This document shows, piece after piece, positions 25,695 through 34,362 of a stretch of DNA of 64,000 nucleotides (position 1 is the stretch's first letter; the number at the start of each line of letters is the position of its first letter). A program made the translations under genes and the position numbers. The stretch covers positions 124,001 through 188,000 of the forward strand of contig NZ_CANNGO010000008.1 in NCBI RefSeq assembly GCF_947504215.1. Direction: 5' to 3'. The notes beneath the pieces are model-generated. The model saw only the letters and a program-made list of their open reading frames with translations. It was not told the DNA's origin and made no database searches. This stretch comes from an uncultured Ruegeria sp. (lineage in GTDB: Bacteria > Pseudomonadota > Alphaproteobacteria > Rhodobacterales > Rhodobacteraceae).

Positions 25695-26681
25695 ATGTCT
25701 CTTGGAACGAAAATCGCGTGGGACGATACCGTCCTGCCCTTTCAACTTGATGTACCGGATATGCGTGGCCGCGTGGCCCGGCTGGATGGTGTGCTCGACG
25801 GCATTCTGAAGCAGCATGATTATCCGGAAAAAGTCGAAGCGTTGGTGGCCGAGATGGCCCTGCTGACTGCATTGATTGGCCAGACCGTATCATTGCGCTG
25901 GAAGCTGTCGTTGCAGGTGCAGTCCAAGGGCGCCGTGCGCATGATCGCAACCGATTACTACGCGCCGCAGGCCGAGGGCGAGCCCGCCCGCATTCGCGCC
26001 TATGCCAGTTTCGACCCCGACCGCTTGACGGACGGCGCGCCGTTCGATCAAGTCGGCGAAGGGTATTTCGCCATCATGATTGATCAAGGCGAAGGCACGC
26101 AGCCGTATCAGGGGATCACACCTTTGGCCGGTGGGTCGCTGAGCGCCTGTGCCGAAGCGTATTTTGCGCAATCCGAACAATTGCCGACACGATTCTCACT
26201 GAGTTTCGGCAAATCCACCGAGCCCGATGTCGGAGAGCATTGGCGCGCCGGCGGGATCATGCTGCAGCACATGCCAAAGGCCTCGCCTTTTGTGGCGTCA
26301 AATGAGGGTGAGGGCGAAATCCTGTCTGCCGAAGATCTGGTTGATGGCGAAGAAGGCGAAAACTGGGGCCGGGTCAACATCTTGCTGGACACGGTGGAGG
26401 ATTTGGAGCTGATCGGGCCGTCGATTGCGCCGACCGATCTGCTTGTGCGCTTGTTTCACGAAGAACAGCCGCGGGTCTACGACGCCCAATCGGTGCAGTT
26501 TGGCTGTACCTGTTCAGAAGATCGGGTGCGCCAAAGCCTGTCGATTTACTCGGCCAAGGACATCGAAAAGATGACCACGCCCGAAGGCGAAGTCACCGCC
26601 GATTGCCAGTTCTGCGGGTCACATTACGTGCTGGATCCTGCGACTGTTGGGTTTGATGCCGAAGACGCCGAAGGTGCATGA
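25695..26681 (+). CDS. hslO: Redox-regulated chaperone Hsp33
   Basis: 328 residues. Hsp33 holdase activated by disulfide formation under oxidative and heat stress. The zinc-binding cysteine set is intact near the C terminus: CTC in QFGCTCSEDRV and CQFC about 30 residues later (CxC-N-CxxC). The N-terminal core (LDGVLDGILKQHDYP, ALIGQTVSLRWKLSLQVQSKG) is typical. Its 3' end overlaps the next Nudix gene, which with cca forms a run of overlapping genes. Confidence 0.94.
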   Translation: MSLGTKIAWDDTVLPFQLDVPDMRGRVARLDGVLDGILKQHDYPEKVEALVAEMALLTALIGQTVSLRWKLSLQVQSKGAVRMIATDYYAPQAEGEPARIRAYASFDPDRLTDGAPFDQVGEGYFAIMIDQGEGTQPYQGITPLAGGSLSACAEAYFAQSEQLPTRFSLSFGKSTEPDVGEHWRAGGIMLQHMPKASPFVASNEGEGEILSAEDLVDGEEGENWGRVNILLDTVEDLELIGPSIAPTDLLVRLFHEEQPRVYDAQSVQFGCTCSEDRVRQSLSIYSAKDIEKMTTPEGEVTADCQFCGSHYVLDPATVGFDAEDAEGA

Positions 26682-27270
26682 CCCGTCTGAACAGATCCGG
26701 GCGGCCCTGCGCCGCCCCGGTCACGGCTCCAGCGATTTTGACCTGAACCTGGAAACCGTTCTTCCGCTCGGACGCAAACTGCGTCCGGCAGGTGTGCTGG
26801 TACCAATTTCCGTCGTCGATGACGTGCCACGACTGATCCTGACCAAACGGTCTTCGGCCCTGAAACATCATCCCGGTCAGATCGCCTTTCCCGGCGGCAA
26901 GCAGGATGAGGGCGATGTTGATGTCACCGCAGCAGCATTGCGTGAAGCACAGGAAGAAATTGGCCTGCCGAGCGATCTGCCCGAGGTACTGGGATTCCTG
27001 CCGACGCATGAGACAGTGACGTCGTTTTCCGTAACACCAGTGGTGGCCATTCTGCGCCACTCATTCCAGGCGATACCTGAGCCCGGCGAGGTGGACGAGG
27101 TGTTTTCGGTTCCACTCAAGCATATCCTGGACCCGTCCAATTATGTGGTAGAGTCGCGCAGATGGCGTGGCCAGCGGCGAAAGTACTTCACAGTGCCATT
27201 CGGCCCCTATTACATCTGGGGCGCAACGGCCCGCATATTGCGGGGATTGGCGGCGCGGGTGAGTGAATGA
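26656..27270 (+). CDS. Nudix hydrolase of the CoA pyrophosphatase type
   Basis: About 204 residues. It contains both the CoA-pyrophosphatase signature (LTKRSSALKHHPGQIAFPGG, the UPF0035/NudL motif) and the Nudix box GGKQDEGDVDVTAAALREAQEEIG. Family members cleave CoA and acyl-CoA to phosphopantetheine and 3',5'-ADP. The track starts at TTG 26647; ATG 26656 is preferred but no good SD is visible, and a GTG at 26674 is also possible; all overlap the end of hslO. Its 3' end overlaps cca by four bases. Confidence 0.88.
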   Translation: MPKTPKVHDPSEQIRAALRRPGHGSSDFDLNLETVLPLGRKLRPAGVLVPISVVDDVPRLILTKRSSALKHHPGQIAFPGGKQDEGDVDVTAAALREAQEEIGLPSDLPEVLGFLPTHETVTSFSVTPVVAILRHSFQAIPEPGEVDEVFSVPLKHILDPSNYVVESRRWRGQRRKYFTVPFGPYYIWGATARILRGLAARVSE

Positions 27271-28421
27271 AGCAGATTGATGAGCCCTGGGTCTCGGAGC
27301 AGTCCACTCAAAAGGTATGTGCCGCCCTGACTGCGGCGGGCAGCCAGGCCTTGTTTGTCGGTGGCTGCGTGCGCAATGCGCTGCTGGGTGTGCCGGTCCG
27401 AGACATCGATATTGCCACAGATGCGCTGCCGGATCAGGTGGTTGCGTTGGCAAAAGACGCAGGGCTTAAGGCGATTCCAACCGGAATTGAACACGGCACG
27501 GTCACGATTGTCAGCCACGGTATCCCGCATGAAATCACCACTTTCCGCCGCGATGTGGAAACCGATGGCCGCCGAGCCGTCGTAGCCTTTTCTGACAAGG
27601 TCGAAGAAGATGCGGCGCGTCGCGATTTCACCATGAACGCGATCTATGCGCAGCCCGATGGGGCAATTCTGGACCCGTTAAACGGCTTACCGGATCTCGA
27701 AAAACGCCATGTGCGGTTCATCGGCACCGCTGCGCATCGTATTCGCGAAGACTATCTGCGGTCGCTGCGTTACTTCCGCTTTCACGCCTGGTATGGCGAT
27801 CCGGATGCCGGGTTTGATCCTGATGCGATGGCCGCAATTTCCAAAAACCTGGACGGGTTGGCGTTGCTGTCACGCGAACGCGTTGGGGCAGAGCTGTTGA
27901 AACTTTTGGCCGCACCTGATCCTGCGCCATCTGTTGCCGCAATGCGCAGCACCGGGGTTTTGGCGCAACTGCTTCCGGGTGCGGATGATCGGGCCTTGGG
28001 CCCATTGATCCATCTTGAACAGGCGTCCTCGACCGAACCCGATCCTGTGCGCCGGCTGGCCGCGATGGTGACGTCTGAGGACGCAACAACGCTTCGACTT
28101 AGCCGGTCGCAATTGCAACGCCTTACCCGCATGCGGGATGAGGCGCAGGCGACAACAAGCGTTGCTGAACTGGGATACCGCTACGGCGACGAGGGCGGGT
28201 TGCACGAAACCTTGCTGCGTTGCGCGTTCTTTGAGCAACCCTGGACCGAAGACCTGAGGCAGGCCTTGCATTCAGGCGCGTCAGCCCGTTTTCCGATCAA
28301 GGCCAAAGACTTGATTCCTGAGTTTTCCGGTCCGGCGCTGGGCAAGAAACTGGCCGAGCTGGAAGGGCGTTGGATTGCATCGGGCTTTACCCTGACCCGC
28401 AAAGATTTGCTGGGCGGTTAG
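27267..28421 (+). CDS. cca: CCA tRNA nucleotidyltransferase / poly(A) polymerase family
   Basis: 384 residues, class II nucleotidyltransferase. Motifs: FVGGCVRNALLGVPVRDIDIATDA (GGxVR and catalytic DxD), RRDFTMNAI, and EDYLRSLRYFRF. It adds or repairs the CCA end of tRNAs; some alphaproteobacterial members may act as poly(A) polymerase, which sequence alone does not separate. The ATG overlaps the Nudix stop (ATGA), giving the coupled order hslO-Nudix-cca. No clear terminator follows before the structured leader region. Confidence 0.92.
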   Translation: MKQIDEPWVSEQSTQKVCAALTAAGSQALFVGGCVRNALLGVPVRDIDIATDALPDQVVALAKDAGLKAIPTGIEHGTVTIVSHGIPHEITTFRRDVETDGRRAVVAFSDKVEEDAARRDFTMNAIYAQPDGAILDPLNGLPDLEKRHVRFIGTAAHRIREDYLRSLRYFRFHAWYGDPDAGFDPDAMAAISKNLDGLALLSRERVGAELLKLLAAPDPAPSVAAMRSTGVLAQLLPGADDRALGPLIHLEQASSTEPDPVRRLAAMVTSEDATTLRLSRSQLQRLTRMRDEAQATTSVAELGYRYGDEGGLHETLLRCAFFEQPWTEDLRQALHSGASARFPIKAKDLIPEFSGPALGKKLAELEGRWIASGFTLTRKDLLGG

Positions 28422-28618
28422 CACGAAGTCTCAAAAGGGGATGACAAATCAAATCGAGTATGGTTACTTGCGCCTGTCACTTGATTTGGAGGGAGGCATG
28501 CGAATGTATTACGGGATCTGGTTCGGCTAAAGCCGGAACGCTCGACCCGTAGGGGTGGTGTTCTGGCGCCATCTTTCTTCGCACGTCCTATTTATCTTGC
28601 TCAATTGGAGCATCCTCC
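28422..28618 (+). promoter_or_regulatory. Structured leader ahead of ABC exporter genes
   Basis: 197-bp gap with several nested signals: CAAATCAA (28445-28452) and TTGATTTG (28481-28488) form a perfect 8-bp dyad that ends against a strong SD; a tiny ORF follows (28498-28530); a hairpin GTTCGGCT-AA-AGCCGGAAC (28521-28539, one bulge) contains that ORF's stop codon; ACCC-GTAG-GGGT (28545-28556); and GCTC-AATTG-GAGC (28599-28611), which encloses the SD (GGAG, 28607-28610) of the first ABC gene. The architecture resembles a translational attenuator. Function is inference. Confidence 0.45.
28498..28530 (+). CDS. Putative 10-residue leader peptide MRMYYGIWFG
   Basis: Below the ORF track cutoff. ATG 28498 is preceded by GGAGGGAG (28488-28495), one of the strongest SD sequences in the window, and reads MRMYYGIWFG before TAA at 28528-28530. 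Four of ten residues are aromatic. The stop codon lies in the loop of a hairpin (28521-28539), so a stalled ribosome would melt that hairpin. An in-frame ATG at 28441 would make a 29-residue peptide, but its SD touches the start codon. No homologue is known to me. Confidence 0.45.
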   Translation: MRMYYGIWFG

Positions 28619-30457
28619 ATGTTTCGCTATTTCGAAAACCTTGTAGACCCTTTTGTCGCCTATACGGAATCTGACACACCACCAACGCGGCTGTGGCCGT
28701 TCATGCTGGATTACTCACAGCCCTTCATGAAGGTCTTTTTCTGGGCCGGGCTTATTTCCATCATCGTGGCAGGCGTTGAGATCGGACTGATCTATTACAT
28801 GGGCCGCGTTGTCGATCTGCTGGGCGGCACGCCGACCGAAGTCTGGCAAAACCACGGAACCGAACTGCTGTGGATGGCCGCATTTATTCTATTGTTGCGA
28901 CCCATCCTTCATCTGGTCGACGTCCTGTTGTTGAACAACACGATCCTGCCGAACTTTGGCACGCTGATCCGCTGGCGCGCGCATAAACACGTGCTGCGTC
29001 AATCGGTTGGTTGGTTCGAAAACGACTTTGCAGGCCGTATCGCCAACCGGATTATGCAGACGCCACCAGCTGCGGGCGAAGTGGTGTTTCAGGTCTTTGA
29101 CGCGATTTCATTCTCGCTTGCTTACCTGATCGGCGCGGCGATTCTGCTGTACGCGGCAGATGCGCGCCTGCTTATTCCGCTGCTGATTTGGTTCGCGTTT
29201 TATGCTGCGCTGGTGCGGTGGACCGTAAAACGTGTTGGACCGGCCTCGCAGGCGGCCTCTGATGCACGCTCGACCGTGACGGGTCGTGTAGTGGACAGCT
29301 ATACCAACATTCATTCGGTTAAGATGTTCGCCCATAACGCGCAAGAATTGGACTATGCGCGCGAAGCGATCGAGGAAACGCGCCGCACATTTCAGGTCGA
29401 AATGCGGATCTTCACTGTCATGGATGCTGTTCTGGTCACCCTGAACGGCCTGCTGATAGTTGGTGTTGTGGGTTGGGCGATTTATCTGTGGATGCAGGGC
29501 AGCGCGACCGTAGGTGTGGTCGCCGCTGCAACTGCGCTGACGCTGAGGCTGAACGCCATGACCGGCTGGATCATGTGGGCGCTGACCAGCTTCTTCCGTC
29601 AGCTCGGTATTGTGGCTGAAGGGATGCAGACGATTGCGCAACCTGTCGATTTGCTGGACGCCCCGGCTGCCAAGCCTCTGCGCCTGACAAACGGCCAGAT
29701 CGAAATCCGCGATTTGTCGCATCATTACGGGCGCGAAACCGGTGGTCTGGATCATATCAACATGATCGTTCAGCCGGGCGAAAAGATTGGCCTGATCGGT
29801 CGGTCTGGTGCTGGTAAATCGACCCTCGTGAAACTGCTCTTACGGTTTTACGACGTTGAACGCGGCGCTATCCTGATTGACGATCAGAACATCGCACAGG
29901 TCACTCAGGACAGTCTGCGCAGTCATATCGGTATGGTTCAGCAGGACAGCGCATTGTTGCATCGCTCGGTTCGGGACAACATTCTATATGGCCGTCCTGA
30001 TGCCACTGAATTGCAGATGATCACAGCGGCGAAACAGGCCGAGGCGCATGAGTTCATCCTTGACCTGCAGGATCCTGAAGGGCGCACCGGCTACGACGCG
30101 CATGTGGGGGAACGCGGCGTAAAGCTCAGCGGTGGTCAAAGGCAGCGGGTGACGCTGGCGCGGGTGATCTTGAAAGACGCCCCGATATTGTTGTTGGACG
30201 AGGCAACATCCGCCCTAGATTCCGAGGTTGAAGCGTCAATTCAGGAAACCCTCTACGGCATGATGCAAGGTAAAACCGTGATCGCCATTGCCCACCGGCT
30301 CAGCACTATCGCACAGATGGACCGCATTCTGGTGATGGATGGGGGCCGCATCGTGGAAGAGGGTGCGCATTCCGAGCTGTTGTCGCAGGGCGGCCTTTAC
30401 GCGCAGTTCTGGGCGCGGCAGTCTGGCGGCTTCATGAATCCGGAGGCCGCTGAATGA
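28619..30457 (+). CDS. ABC exporter subunit 1 (fused membrane and ATPase domains)
   Basis: 612 residues, a half-transporter of the exporter type. Six hydrophobic segments span roughly residues 45-320 (VFFWAGLISIIVAGVEIGLIYY, LAYLIGAAILLY, LVTLNGLLIVGVVGWAIYLW and others). The C-terminal ATPase shows Walker A GRSGAGKST, signature LSGGQRQR, Walker B ILLLDEATSALD and the His switch IAHRLSTI, so both ATP and catalytic elements look intact. No N-terminal C39 peptidase domain is present. The start overlaps an SD inside a small hairpin. It overlaps the second subunit by four bases; the two probably form a heterodimer. Substrate unknown. Confidence 0.9.
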   Translation: MFRYFENLVDPFVAYTESDTPPTRLWPFMLDYSQPFMKVFFWAGLISIIVAGVEIGLIYYMGRVVDLLGGTPTEVWQNHGTELLWMAAFILLLRPILHLVDVLLLNNTILPNFGTLIRWRAHKHVLRQSVGWFENDFAGRIANRIMQTPPAAGEVVFQVFDAISFSLAYLIGAAILLYAADARLLIPLLIWFAFYAALVRWTVKRVGPASQAASDARSTVTGRVVDSYTNIHSVKMFAHNAQELDYAREAIEETRRTFQVEMRIFTVMDAVLVTLNGLLIVGVVGWAIYLWMQGSATVGVVAAATALTLRLNAMTGWIMWALTSFFRQLGIVAEGMQTIAQPVDLLDAPAAKPLRLTNGQIEIRDLSHHYGRETGGLDHINMIVQPGEKIGLIGRSGAGKSTLVKLLLRFYDVERGAILIDDQNIAQVTQDSLRSHIGMVQQDSALLHRSVRDNILYGRPDATELQMITAAKQAEAHEFILDLQDPEGRTGYDAHVGERGVKLSGGQRQRVTLARVILKDAPILLLDEATSALDSEVEASIQETLYGMMQGKTVIAIAHRLSTIAQMDRILVMDGGRIVEEGAHSELLSQGGLYAQFWARQSGGFMNPEAAE

Positions 30458-32286
30458 GGGTTGCCGACCTCATAAACCCATTCAACAACATCGAAACGCC
30501 CCCACCGCAGACTTTGGGGGCGTTCATTCGCTGGAGCTTATCCGGCGCGTGGCCGATGCTGTTTATTGCGGCGTTCTTCTCGGCAACCGCTGGGGCGATG
30601 GAGGCGGGAACCGCCTGGATCCTCGGTTGGGTGATCGATGTGGCGACTTCCAGCGGGCCTGAGGACTTTCTGACCGCAGGAAACATGTGGATGATCTTCG
30701 GCGCAGTGGCGTTTTTCATGGTGCTGCGACCCATCCTGTTTGGGCTGTCGTCGCTGTCGAACAACTACATCGTCATGCCTAACATCCCGCCATTGGTTCT
30801 GGCCAAGTTGAACCGTTGGACGCTGGGCCAGTCCGTGACCTATTTCGATGACGATTTCGCGGGCCGGATTGCTCAGAAGCAGATGCAGACCTCGAACGCC
30901 ATGGCCTCGGTCGTGTCGGAAACGATTAGCGCAATTGTCTTCGCTTTGGCGTCACTTTTGGGCTCTTTGCTTTTGTTAGGGTCTATTCACCCGTTGGTGA
31001 TGTTGCCGTTTGCGGCCTGGCTTGTGGTGTATTTCTTGCTGGTGCGGTGGTATCTGCCGCGCATCCGCAAACGATCGGCAGAACGGGCCGGGGCGCGTGC
31101 GATGGTGTCAGGACAGGTGGTCGATGCGATCACCAATATCAAAACCGTCAAACTGTTTGCCCATGCGAATTTCGAAGATCAGGCTGCGCGGCACTCGATG
31201 GTCGAGCTGCGCGAAAGATCGCTGGATTTCGGCAAACTATCGGTAAGCTTCCGATTTATTCTGATGACGCTTGCCGGGATTCTCCCAGTCCTGTTGCTGG
31301 GCGCAACGCTTTGGCTGTGGCAAGCCGGCAGTGCAACTGCTGGCGATATCGTTGCGGCCGGTGCCGTTTCGATCCGCATCGCGCAAATGACAGGCTGGGT
31401 CAGTTTCACGCTGATGGGTCTGTACGCCAATGTCGGAGAAATCGAGAACGGCATGAAGACGCTGGCCAAGCGCGACCGAGTCGAAGACGCATCACAGGCC
31501 GGCGAGCTAAGCGTTACCGAAGGCAGCATCAGTTTTGACGCTGTCAGCTTTGCCTATGGCCGGGATGTTGGCGGTGTCACAGACCTGAATATGACCGTAA
31601 AGCCGGGTGAGAAACTGGGTATCGTCGGTGCTTCCGGTGCCGGGAAATCAACCTTGGTTTCGCTTTTGTTGCGGCTCTATGAGGGGGAAAAAGGTACAAT
31701 TAGCATCGATGGGCAGGATGTGTCACATGTGACGCAGGACAGCCTGCGCCGCCAGATCGGCATGGTCACGCAAGAAACAGCGATGTTCAATCGCTCGGCC
31801 CGCGAGAATATCCTCTATGGTCGCCCTGACGCCCGAGAGGCTGAGATGGTCGAGGCGGCCAAAAAGGCCGAAGCGCATGAGTTCATCCTCAGCCTTCAGG
31901 ATGCGCATGGTCGCACCGGATATGATGCGCATCTGGGAGAACGTGGAGTGAAACTCAGCGGCGGTCAGCGTCAGCGGATCGCATTGGCCCGCGCCATTCT
32001 GAAGGACGCGCCGATCCTGGTGTTGGACGAGGCGACATCAGCGCTGGATTCCGAGGTCGAGGCATCGATTCAGACCGCACTACACCGGGTGATGCAGGGC
32101 AAGACGGTTCTGGCCATTGCGCACCGTTTGTCGACGCTCAGCGAGATGGACCGCATTGTCGTGTTGGACCATGGACAGATCGTGGAAACCGGCACCCATG
32201 ATGCGTTGTTGGAAAAAGGCGGGCTATACGCTCGGTTCTGGCATCGTCAATCGGGCGGGTTCATTCAGGCGGAAGCTGCCGAATAA
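30454..32286 (+). CDS. ABC exporter subunit 2 (fused membrane and ATPase domains)
   Basis: 610 residues, clearly paralogous to the preceding gene: shared patterns include VTYFDDDFAGRIAQKQMQT against VGWFENDFAGRIANRIMQT and near-identical ATPase blocks (GASGAGKST, GYDAHLGERGVKLSGGQRQR, ILVLDEATSALDSEVEASI, IAHRLSTL). Both catalytic sites look canonical, unlike heterodimers with one degenerate site. ATG 30454 overlaps the upstream stop (ATGA), so the two are translationally coupled. Likely exports lipids, drugs or a small peptide; sequence does not tell which. Confidence 0.9.
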   Translation: MRVADLINPFNNIETPPPQTLGAFIRWSLSGAWPMLFIAAFFSATAGAMEAGTAWILGWVIDVATSSGPEDFLTAGNMWMIFGAVAFFMVLRPILFGLSSLSNNYIVMPNIPPLVLAKLNRWTLGQSVTYFDDDFAGRIAQKQMQTSNAMASVVSETISAIVFALASLLGSLLLLGSIHPLVMLPFAAWLVVYFLLVRWYLPRIRKRSAERAGARAMVSGQVVDAITNIKTVKLFAHANFEDQAARHSMVELRERSLDFGKLSVSFRFILMTLAGILPVLLLGATLWLWQAGSATAGDIVAAGAVSIRIAQMTGWVSFTLMGLYANVGEIENGMKTLAKRDRVEDASQAGELSVTEGSISFDAVSFAYGRDVGGVTDLNMTVKPGEKLGIVGASGAGKSTLVSLLLRLYEGEKGTISIDGQDVSHVTQDSLRRQIGMVTQETAMFNRSARENILYGRPDAREAEMVEAAKKAEAHEFILSLQDAHGRTGYDAHLGERGVKLSGGQRQRIALARAILKDAPILVLDEATSALDSEVEASIQTALHRVMQGKTVLAIAHRLSTLSEMDRIVVLDHGQIVETGTHDALLEKGGLYARFWHRQSGGFIQAEAAE

Positions 32287-32325: not shown

Positions 32326-33555
32326 ATGACGCAACAATTCACCATAAACCGCCTTGGGCACCAGGGCGATGGCATCGCGGATGGCCCAGTCTATGCGCCG
32401 CGCACCCTGCCAGGTGAGGTGGTCAGCGGCACGCTTCTGGATCAATTCCTGACTGATATTCGGGTGGATACGCCTTCCGACCAGCGGGTGAAGGCGCCGT
32501 GCCGTCACTATAAGGCGTGTGGCGGATGCCAGCTGCAGCATGCGTCTGATGCGTTTGTTGCAGATTGGAAAGTCGACATCGTCCGCAACGCGCTTGCGGC
32601 ACAAGGGTTAGAGGCGACTATGCGCCCGATCCACACGTCGCCGGAACGATCTCGTCGCCGCGCGACGATCACTGTGCGTCGGACGAAGAAGGGCACGCTG
32701 GCCGGTTTTCATGGACGCGCTTCGGATACCATCACAGAAATTCCCGATTGCCATCTGTTGGACCCGGCCCTGATTGCCGCGATTCCAGTGGCCGAGGCGC
32801 TGGCCGTGTTGGGCGGCAGCCGAAAGGGGGCTCTTGCCGTTACCCTGACCCTGTCCGAGGGCGGTTTGGATGTGGCCGTCAAAGGTGGCAAGCCACTGGA
32901 TGGACCTCTGGAACTGGCGCTGGCGCAGGCCACGGAGAAACATGCGCTCGCGCGGCTCAGTTGGGATGGCGAGGTGATTGCCATGCGCCACGCCCCTGTT
33001 CAACGGTTTGGAGATGTCACGGTCGTGCCCCCGTCGGGCGCGTTTCTGCAAGCAACCAAAGACGGCGAACAGGCTCTAACATTGGCGGTTTTGAAGGCTG
33101 TTCAGGGCGCTAAGCGAGTTGTTGATCTGTTTTCCGGCAGCGGTACGTTCTCTCTCCCATTGGCAAAAATGGCGGAAGTCCACGCAGTTGAGGGTGAAGC
33201 TGCCATGACCCAAGCCTTGGATAAGGGATGGCGCCGGGCGCAAGGCCTCAAGCGTATAACGACAGAGGCGCGGGATCTGTTTCGCCGTCCGTTGATGCAG
33301 GATGAGTTGAACTCCTTTGATGCTGTTGTTCTGGACCCGCCGCGCGCAGGGGCCGAAGCGCAAGTGGCCGAATTGGTTCAGGCGCAACGCCCGGTGATTG
33401 CCTATGTCTCGTGCAACCCGGTGACCTTTGCGCGCGACGCCAAATCCCTTGTCGATGCAGGATATACTCTTAAATGGGTACAGGTTGTTGACCAATTTCG
33501 ATGGTCGTCACATACGGAACTTGCCGCGCGGTTTGTGCTGAACCCCGGATCTTGA
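32326..33555 (+). CDS. TrmA/RlmD-family 4Fe-4S RNA uridine methyltransferase
   Basis: 409 residues. A short N-terminal TRAM-like region (INRLGHQGDGIADGPVYAPRTLPGE) is followed by the iron-sulfur cysteines of RlmD/RumA (PCRHYKACGGCQLQH plus IPDCHLL), the SAM motif VVDLFSGSGTFSLPLA, the DPPRAGA motif, the nucleophile in YVSCNPVTFARD and the catalytic Glu in SHTELAA. It makes 5-methyluridine in rRNA or tRNA; which site is not resolvable, since alphaproteobacteria carry a single broad family member. ATG 32326 lies 40 bp after the ABC pair. Confidence 0.9.
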   Translation: MTQQFTINRLGHQGDGIADGPVYAPRTLPGEVVSGTLLDQFLTDIRVDTPSDQRVKAPCRHYKACGGCQLQHASDAFVADWKVDIVRNALAAQGLEATMRPIHTSPERSRRRATITVRRTKKGTLAGFHGRASDTITEIPDCHLLDPALIAAIPVAEALAVLGGSRKGALAVTLTLSEGGLDVAVKGGKPLDGPLELALAQATEKHALARLSWDGEVIAMRHAPVQRFGDVTVVPPSGAFLQATKDGEQALTLAVLKAVQGAKRVVDLFSGSGTFSLPLAKMAEVHAVEGEAAMTQALDKGWRRAQGLKRITTEARDLFRRPLMQDELNSFDAVVLDPPRAGAEAQVAELVQAQRPVIAYVSCNPVTFARDAKSLVDAGYTLKWVQVVDQFRWSSHTELAARFVLNPGS

Positions 33556-33576: not shown

Positions 33577-34362
33577 ATGGGGTTCAATCAGCGCTTGCTG
33601 GCCATCATCGAAGCGCCAGCCTTCGGGCGGTTCATTACCGGTGTCATTATCTTCAATGCTGTGTTGCTGGGGATGGAAACGTCGCCCACGCTGATGGCAC
33701 AAGCGGGCCCATTGATCGTATTTCTGGACAGCGTTTGCCTGGGCATCTTTGTTGTCGAGATCGGGATCAAGCTGATCGCCACCGGCCGCAGGTTTTTTTC
33801 CAGCGGCTGGAACATCTTTGACTTTCTGATCGTCGGGATTGCGCTGATCCCGGGGGGCGGGGGGCTGTCCGTATTGCGGGCCCTGCGCATCCTGCGGGTG
33901 CTGCGTGTCATTTCCGTCGCGCCACGTCTGCGCCGCGTGGTCGAAGGTTTTATCTCGGCCGTTCCGGGTATGGCCAGTGTGTTCCTGCTGATGGCAATTC
34001 TCTTCTACATCGGTGCGGTGATCTCGACCAAACTGTTCTCGCAATCTTTCCCCGACTGGTTCGGTGACCTTGGGCTGTCGGCCTATACCTTGTTCCAGAT
34101 CATGACGCTGGAAAGCTGGTCGATGGGCATCGTCCGCCCGGTGATGGAGGTGTATCCTTATGCCTGGTTGTTTTTTGTCCCATTCATCATGGTCACGACA
34201 TTTGCGGTGGTGAACCTGCTGGTCGGCCTGATCGTAAATTCGATGCAGGATGCCCATCATGCCGAAGATGAGGTGAAAACAGATGCCTACCGGGACGAGG
34301 TAATTGCGCGACTTGAAATCATCGAACGCCATTTAATTGAGCAGTCGAACATCAAAAAGTGA
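33577..34362 (+). CDS. Voltage-gated sodium channel (BacNav/NaChBac type)
   Basis: 261 residues, one six-segment subunit that assembles as a tetramer in the inner membrane. The S4 voltage sensor has Arg at every third position (R101, R104, R107, R110 in VLRALRILRVLRVIS). The pore loop carries the selectivity filter TLESWSM at residues 177-183, the exact sodium-selective BacNav filter. S6 (VTTFAVVNLLVGLIVNSM) leads into an acidic neck and a C-terminal coiled coil (YRDEVIARLEIIERHLIEQ). NavSp from Silicibacter pomeroyi is a described close type. In marine bacteria such channels are tied to sodium homeostasis, motility or pH response. SD AGGAGAG precedes ATG 33577. Confidence 0.93.
   Translation: MGFNQRLLAIIEAPAFGRFITGVIIFNAVLLGMETSPTLMAQAGPLIVFLDSVCLGIFVVEIGIKLIATGRRFFSSGWNIFDFLIVGIALIPGGGGLSVLRALRILRVLRVISVAPRLRRVVEGFISAVPGMASVFLLMAILFYIGAVISTKLFSQSFPDWFGDLGLSAYTLFQIMTLESWSMGIVRPVMEVYPYAWLFFVPFIMVTTFAVVNLLVGLIVNSMQDAHHAEDEVKTDAYRDEVIARLEIIERHLIEQSNIKK

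Follow-up and report, generated by a model that had tools for sequence, protein, structure and literature searches.

Known ribosome-mediated attenuators and the exporter leader

The bmrB-bmrCD (PMC4191407) and vmlR (PMC9226507) operons of Bacillus subtilis are controlled by ribosome-mediated attenuation logic. In bmrB-bmrCD the attenuator stands ahead of a heterodimeric ABC exporter and is built from an anti-antiterminator, an antiterminator and a terminator (PMC4191407). In vmlR a very short upstream ORF lies inside the anti-antiterminator hairpin, an antibiotic-stalled ribosome frees the antiterminator, the Shine-Dalgarno sequence (SD) of the main gene lies under a hairpin, and the identity of the leader codons is largely unimportant (PMC9226507). 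The trp/his-type attenuators of proteobacteria have regions 1-4, and helices 1:2, 2:3 and 3:4, the choice among which depends on where the ribosome stands, and within the Rhodobacterales the uORFC-8-2 leader (cysS) is a ribosome-mediated attenuator with a small ORF (PMC8632094).

The locus described here resembles each of these systems in the features just listed, its terminator being a presumed one and the freeing of an antiterminator by a stalled ribosome being proposed from folding. It lies in a 64,000-nucleotide stretch of Ruegeria DNA, which is called the window; coordinates are window positions, and the leader elements and exporter genes are on the forward (+) strand. The evidence below suggests that 28504-28579 is probably a ribosome-operated transcription attenuator for an ABC exporter pair. 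The described systems also differ from it. In bmrB-bmrCD, which belongs to other bacteria, the leader has 53 codons and its ORF contains the terminator (PMC4191407). vmlR has a 3-codon ORF (MIN), encodes an ABC-F ribosome-protection protein and is found in Firmicutes, with an intrinsic terminator and a NusG-dependent pause that have been demonstrated (PMC9226507); the likeness described here is one of logic. Unlike the trp/his-type attenuators, the present leader has no run of one regulatory codon, its region 1 directly follows the start codon, and its target is an exporter. uORFC-8-2, from the same order, is a separate motif with tandem Cys codons at 14-15, a U-run and cysS as its target (PMC8632094).

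A sequence-only reading of this DNA had known of no described counterpart. As to the kind of system this does not hold, because bmrB-bmrCD and vmlR share its logic (PMC4191407, PMC9226507), but for this leader family the statement stands, as no description of it was found. In open-access text there was no paper containing the leader peptide core MYYGIW and none on this leader, and Rfam covariance models gave no match within 26000-31000, with only sub-threshold chance matches elsewhere. What appears to be undescribed so far is this leader family, its position upstream of an alphaproteobacterial exporter, and the swapping of leader peptides around a constant RNA switch, while the kind of control is known.

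The leader ORF, its promoter and its distribution

The small ORF with a strong SD that had been picked out from the letters is present in the sequence. Its SD, GGAGGGAGG (28488-28496), contains a GGAGG that is found in 131 of 150 distinct upstream regions. The ORF had been given as ten residues, MRMYYGIWFG; the reading frame was upheld and the start was not, since the outer in-frame ATG (28498) is replaced by CTG, GTG, CAG or ACG in relatives. The conserved, and thus working, start is the inner ATG at 28504, and comparison with relatives defines an ORF of eight codons, MYYGIWFG-stop (28504-28530). The peptide pattern matched once in the window (0 matches expected), and the leader is presumably translated.

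Upstream of the ORF, a promoter -35 element, ATGACA (28441-28446), was recognized from relatives: 141 of 150 distinct upstream regions have NTGACN at the same position, usually as GTGACA or ATGACA. A position tally over relatives, many of which have TAnnnn, places the likely -10 element TTACTT at 28464-28469, 17 nt after the -35 element, and the transcript is expected to start near 28476. A simple sigma-70 scan called no promoter at 28441-28469; the arrangement (G/A)TGACA, 17 nt, TAnnnn is also retained across the wider family. An 8-bp dyad (28445-28452/28481-28488), earlier noted as ending against the leader SD, does exist, but a functional role for it was not borne out: 5 of 138 loci retain it, and its left arm overlaps the -35 element, upstream of the predicted transcription start. 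Within the genus, the block AAGTCTCAAAAGGGGATGACAA (28425-28446), which runs up to and includes the -35 element, hardly varies at all. This exceeds what a promoter needs and makes the block a possible regulator site.

Sequence comparison showed that the leader is widely conserved. The sequence-only reading had made itself dependent on conservation in relatives. Apart from the window's own genome, 36 genomes of the genus were searched, and every one of them has the region, in one case as a short match only. A scan of the genomes of 84,980 species for an SD followed by MYYGIW returned 96 stretches, mostly from Ruegeria, Leisingera, Phaeobacter, Roseovarius, Tritonibacter, Sedimentitalea and other Rhodobacteraceae. 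In about 95 distinct Rhodobacteraceae loci, MYYGIW is followed by two to four further residues (8-10 in total) and then by the same exporter. Among the loci read, the leader stands 109-135 nt upstream of the same ABC exporter, or of a related exporter starting MYK or MFK, the sole exception being one Flavobacteriales stretch that looks like a chance match. In Roseovarius-type genomes (L051, L069, L086, L087, L095) a diverged exporter, beginning MYKFFENLINPF... and MFKFFENLVDPF..., lies behind the same leader and is perhaps a paralogous pair.

A family-wide set was seeded with the exporter N-terminus MFR[YF]FEN, a motif found in 132 of 396 genera, and upstream regions were fetched from the exporter starts (n = 124). 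An 8-12-codon ORF with an SD was found 100-138 nt upstream of 69 of these 124 starts. A short ORF with an SD thus heads the leader in the genus and in these family-wide loci, as it does in trp/bmrB/vmlR-type attenuators, an assignment made on sequence. The set contains near variants (MYHGIW, MYRGIW, MYFGLW, MYYGLW), type II leaders unrelated to MYYGIW (M-x-R-D-R-(I/T)-x-x-S-(F/P)-A), and other unrelated peptides (MDIGISTRLA, MNNGMHRPLV, MIYRICIPTA, MEPRIDKQKA). Many type II leaders contain an R-x-R motif of the macrolide type, which was rejected as a general feature because it is not constant (HDR, CDR, RDW and TDR also occur). In several genera (L144, L146, L147, L155, L156, L159, L169, L171 and L172) the exporter lies close behind its upstream neighbour, with no promoter or leader, reflecting either loss or later gain of the switch. 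No recognizable leader was present at distant exporter homologs outside the family (38-40% identity), and an RNA-model search for extra copies of the switch in the same genome gave none that was convincing, the best match lying inside a coding region.

Alternative helices and ribosome position

Folding of the leader revealed three mutually exclusive helices, which the sequence-only reading had missed: the pairing of region 1 with 28546-28551 and the hairpins at 28533-28566 and 28553-28574. Region 1 comprises leader codons 3-5 (TACGGGATC, 28510-28518) and was identified by folding, by the comparison of matched with permuted pairings, and by covariation in diverged relatives. Region 2 and its loop occupy 28533-28552; region 2 pairs with region 1 through GA (28544-28545) and CCCGTA (28546-28551), or with region 3 instead. 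The 1:2 helix, the anti-antiterminator, folds at -18.2 kcal/mol (28507-28551), and within it lies an inner hairpin, TCGGC-TAAA-GCCGG (28523-28536), of which similar forms (CAGC-NNNN-GCTG) occur in relatives. Its arms (28523-28527/28532-28536) pair around the TAA, so the earlier observation that the leader ends inside a hairpin was confirmed. The 2:3 antiterminator hairpin (28533-28566, -20.3 kcal/mol) forms with a ribosome over region 1. Region 3 (GGGTGG or GGGCGG) can pair with region 2 and also with region 4, the latter in the 3:4 hairpin GGGTGGTGT-TCTG-GCGCCATCT (28553-28574, -10.9 kcal/mol), a presumed terminator or pause hairpin.

In each leader group the initial codons have their complement 10-20 nt past the stop codon. 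The matching stretches are TACGGG/CCCGTA in the window, CGGGATC/GATCCCG in L160, AACGGGAT/ATCCCGTT in L168, AAGCAGAG/CTCTGCTT in L154, TACAGGATC/GATCCTGTA in L193 and AAGGATCG/CGATCCTT in L211. Across 74 distinct leaders, the duplex with the leader's own partner averaged -14.8 kcal/mol, compared with -13.3 kcal/mol for permuted partners (z = -5.3, reached in 0 of 20,000 permutations, kinship uncorrected), and a control segment further downstream gave no such own-partner preference. The covariation analysis that had been proposed for this region proved informative in 13 diverged loci, where compensatory changes hold 1:2 paired although the peptide differs: the 9-bp helix is 87% paired, five of its nine pairs are changed on both sides, and the covariation score was reached by 0 of 500 shuffles (kinship uncorrected), with slid controls pairing at 17-48%. 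A model trained on diverged leaders alone found its best match in the window at 28504-28577, a weak hit (15 bits, E = 0.04). Taken together, folding and covariation place these exclusive helices with those of trp/bmrB/vmlR-type attenuators.

The pairing has left its mark on the codons. Glycine 4 is encoded by GGG in 95 of 98 type I leaders, compared with 20% of Gly codons in a genome sample, a bias that reveals RNA constraint on the ORF. Codon 3, whichever residue it encodes, almost always has C as its last base. In an unbiased mutual-information scan of the whole MAFFT alignment, clade differences dominated and one 1:2 column pair was informative. RNAalifold, run on this alignment, was of no help, since it had to contend with alternative helices and variable spacing.

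To follow the helices with a translating ribosome, each leader was folded with the ribosome-covered part removed, and the probability of the 3:4 helix, P(3:4), was compared among Ruegeria-like loci, other type I loci and diverged loci. With no ribosome, P(3:4) averaged 0.65-0.77. It was lowest (0.01-0.35) with the P site on codons 2-5, and reached 0.85-0.96 with the ribosome at or near the stop codon. This switching pattern was seen in 56% of type I loci and 41% of diverged loci, compared with 3-5% after downstream shuffling (kinship uncorrected), and fell to 39% and 18%, respectively, in chimeras in which the first 24 nt were swapped between loci. In the window, free RNA to 28576 folds into 1:2 plus 3:4 at -31.1 kcal/mol. 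Covering 16-28 nt shifts the fold to 2:3, at -25 to -28 kcal/mol, and once at least 34 nt are covered, 3:4 returns. In the ensemble of the full-length free RNA, the window's own leader reaches a P(3:4) of only 0.35. Computed in three states and set against shuffled and chimeric controls, the position of the ribosome thus selects the helix, as in trp/bmrB/vmlR-type attenuators. Leader-peptide attenuation, as a class, is supported by the conserved leader together with these alternative helices.

These folds suggest how the switch would operate. Upon normal translation of the eight-codon leader the ribosome would leave, codons 3-5 would pair with region 2, region 3 would be free for region 4, and transcription would stop or stall at 3:4. 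A ribosome held in the first five or six codons would cover region 1, so that region 2 takes region 3; 3:4 would then be blocked and RNA polymerase could proceed into the exporter genes.

Output of the switch and the signal it senses

The 3:4 hairpin would most simply act on transcription. It is followed by a short U-rich tail, TTTCTT (28574-28579), which is of mixed C/U composition in most other genera: the 8 nt past 3:4 average 3.2 T, 2.4 C and 1.0 G, without a proper U-run in most genera. A simple terminator scan of the window called no terminator at 3:4, and the terminator comparison covered one contig. This pyrimidine-rich, G-poor sequence is what would be expected if 3:4 stalled the polymerase, or if Rho acted on the C/U-rich stretch, in place of intrinsic termination. 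We regard such an output as very unlikely, given that Rho loading sites are usually longer than this stretch and that Ruegeria itself has TTTCTT after the stem. Separately, 28575-28597 and its counterparts are pyrimidine-rich, and in many genera a (G/C)CAY... motif (TTCGCA, TTGCAT, CTGCAT) recurs about 8-12 nt past the 3:4 stem, possibly as a pause or end point.

The sequence-only reading had drawn translational attenuation, with the exporter SD in a second hairpin and the leader SD GGAGG paired to CCTCC. A weak hairpin does cover the exporter SD (TGCTC-AATTG-GAGCA, 28598-28612, arms 28598-28602/28608-28612, -5.2 kcal/mol), and 131 of 147 distinct downstream ends have a stem there too, usually with the same GCTC/GAGC core and with some covariation (TGCTC/GAGCA, CGCTC/GAGCG). 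The CCTCC partner fared less well, being present just before the exporter ATG sporadically, in only 23 of 153 cases. The scheme was not sustained as drawn: its dyad and CCTCC pairings are not conserved, whereas 1:2, 2:3 and 3:4 are. A leader ribosome could still govern access to the SD held at 28598-28612, for which the conserved, partly covarying hairpin speaks, as does the combination of both levels of control in vmlR (PMC9226507). However, the hairpin is weak, lies more than 20 nt beyond 3:4, and has no alternative partner that shifts with ribosome position; the alternative pairing that hides or frees the main-gene SD in erm/cat-type systems was not found, the SD hairpin being separate from the switch. 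Control through the SD is therefore unlikely as the main mechanism. As the alternative fold does not touch the exporter SD, the output is more likely transcriptional, and the SD hairpin may add a second layer, as in vmlR.

As to the signal, folding delimits a sensing window that ends at codon 5 or 6 of the leader. The toeprint of a ribosome on the start codon reaches ~16 nt downstream (PMC9226507), so that even an initiating ribosome would cover region 1. What the switch most likely detects is a ribosome that has come to a halt within the first codons, for example under a translation-inhibiting drug, and its response would be increased transcription of the exporter genes. Any agent that halts ribosomes at initiation or shortly afterwards could be the inducer; ribosome-targeting antibiotics are the foremost candidates, and the exporter may in turn expel them. 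In vmlR, too, drugs that stall ribosomes during initiation are effective, and most leader variants tested work (PMC9226507).

Of the two signals proposed from the letters, a ribosome-targeting compound was a good guess and aromatic amino acids are doubtful, because many relatives with leaders of other kinds, among them MDIGISTRLA, MNNGMHRPLV and MVRDRIHISFG, keep the switch. Low charged tRNA-Tyr or tRNA-Trp could in principle stall the ribosome at its Tyr or Trp codons and turn the exporter on, and Tyr2 (97 of 99) and Trp6 (99 of 99), both within the codon 2-6 sensing window, are near-invariant in type I leaders. This is nonetheless a distinctly improbable explanation: repeated regulated codons kept in relatives were not found, only Tyr2 and Trp6 being kept in one clade; 20 of the 99 type I leaders carry H, R, C or F as their third residue; the 1:2 pairing accounts for the codon bias; and the genes encode exporters and not biosynthetic enzymes. 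Aromatic-codon sensing was therefore rejected as the general signal, since diverged leaders lack those codons.

The Tyr2 codon may be TAT or TAC, so that the constraint is on the residue, and in the type I clade a peptide-specific component is possible, rather than a report of any arrest. Pressed further, MY-x-G-(I/L)-W would be an arrest peptide whose stalling requires the binding of one specific ligand or drug, with the RNA switch as its read-out. We consider this rather doubtful, as unrelated peptides accompany the same switch in related genera and a nascent peptide of six residues barely enters the ribosome exit tunnel. The tolerance of vmlR for most leader variants tested (PMC9226507) also argues against it.

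Arrest in the first codons is thus the preferred signal: with many different peptides in use, early arrest is their common denominator, and the diverged leader MVRDRIHISFG also retains the RNA switch. A tentative extension, which we consider possible without relying on it, is a family-wide Rhodobacteraceae switch that senses nothing but a ribosome detained before codon 6 or 7, in which the peptide is free to diverge while its codons pair with region 2, and the hairpin stops polymerase without a classical U-tract, making it a generic sensor of early translation arrest for an ABC exporter in alphaproteobacteria. If the attenuator operates as proposed, ribosome-targeting compounds would induce this exporter pair throughout a large group of marine bacteria, and the leader could serve directly as a reporter of such compounds in seawater communities. 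The bmrB/vmlR logic would have evolved separately in Gram-negative bacteria, and the leader would be an unusually clear example of RNA pairing, rather than peptide, shaping a leader sequence.

The controlled genes encode two half-transporter subunits with a transmembrane and a nucleotide-binding domain each, of 612 aa (28619-30457; Pfam PF00664 and PF00005) and 610 aa (30454-32286; Pfam), overlapping by 4 nt. NCBIfam gave no specific family for the pair, MsbA-like matches falling far below the cut-offs. The best solved structural relatives are eukaryotic ABCB transporters, and no BmrCD chain was among the 60 best structure matches, indicating that the exporters are not close relatives. Family and control together suggest that the pair exports drugs, and the control hints at where a substrate might be sought. 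The pair is flanked by two RNA-related genes, for a CCA-adding/poly(A) polymerase-like protein (27267-28421) and an RlmD-like 23S rRNA methyltransferase (32326-33555), and further downstream 33577-34362 encodes a single-domain voltage-gated ion channel-like protein (Pfam Ion_trans, E 3e-42).
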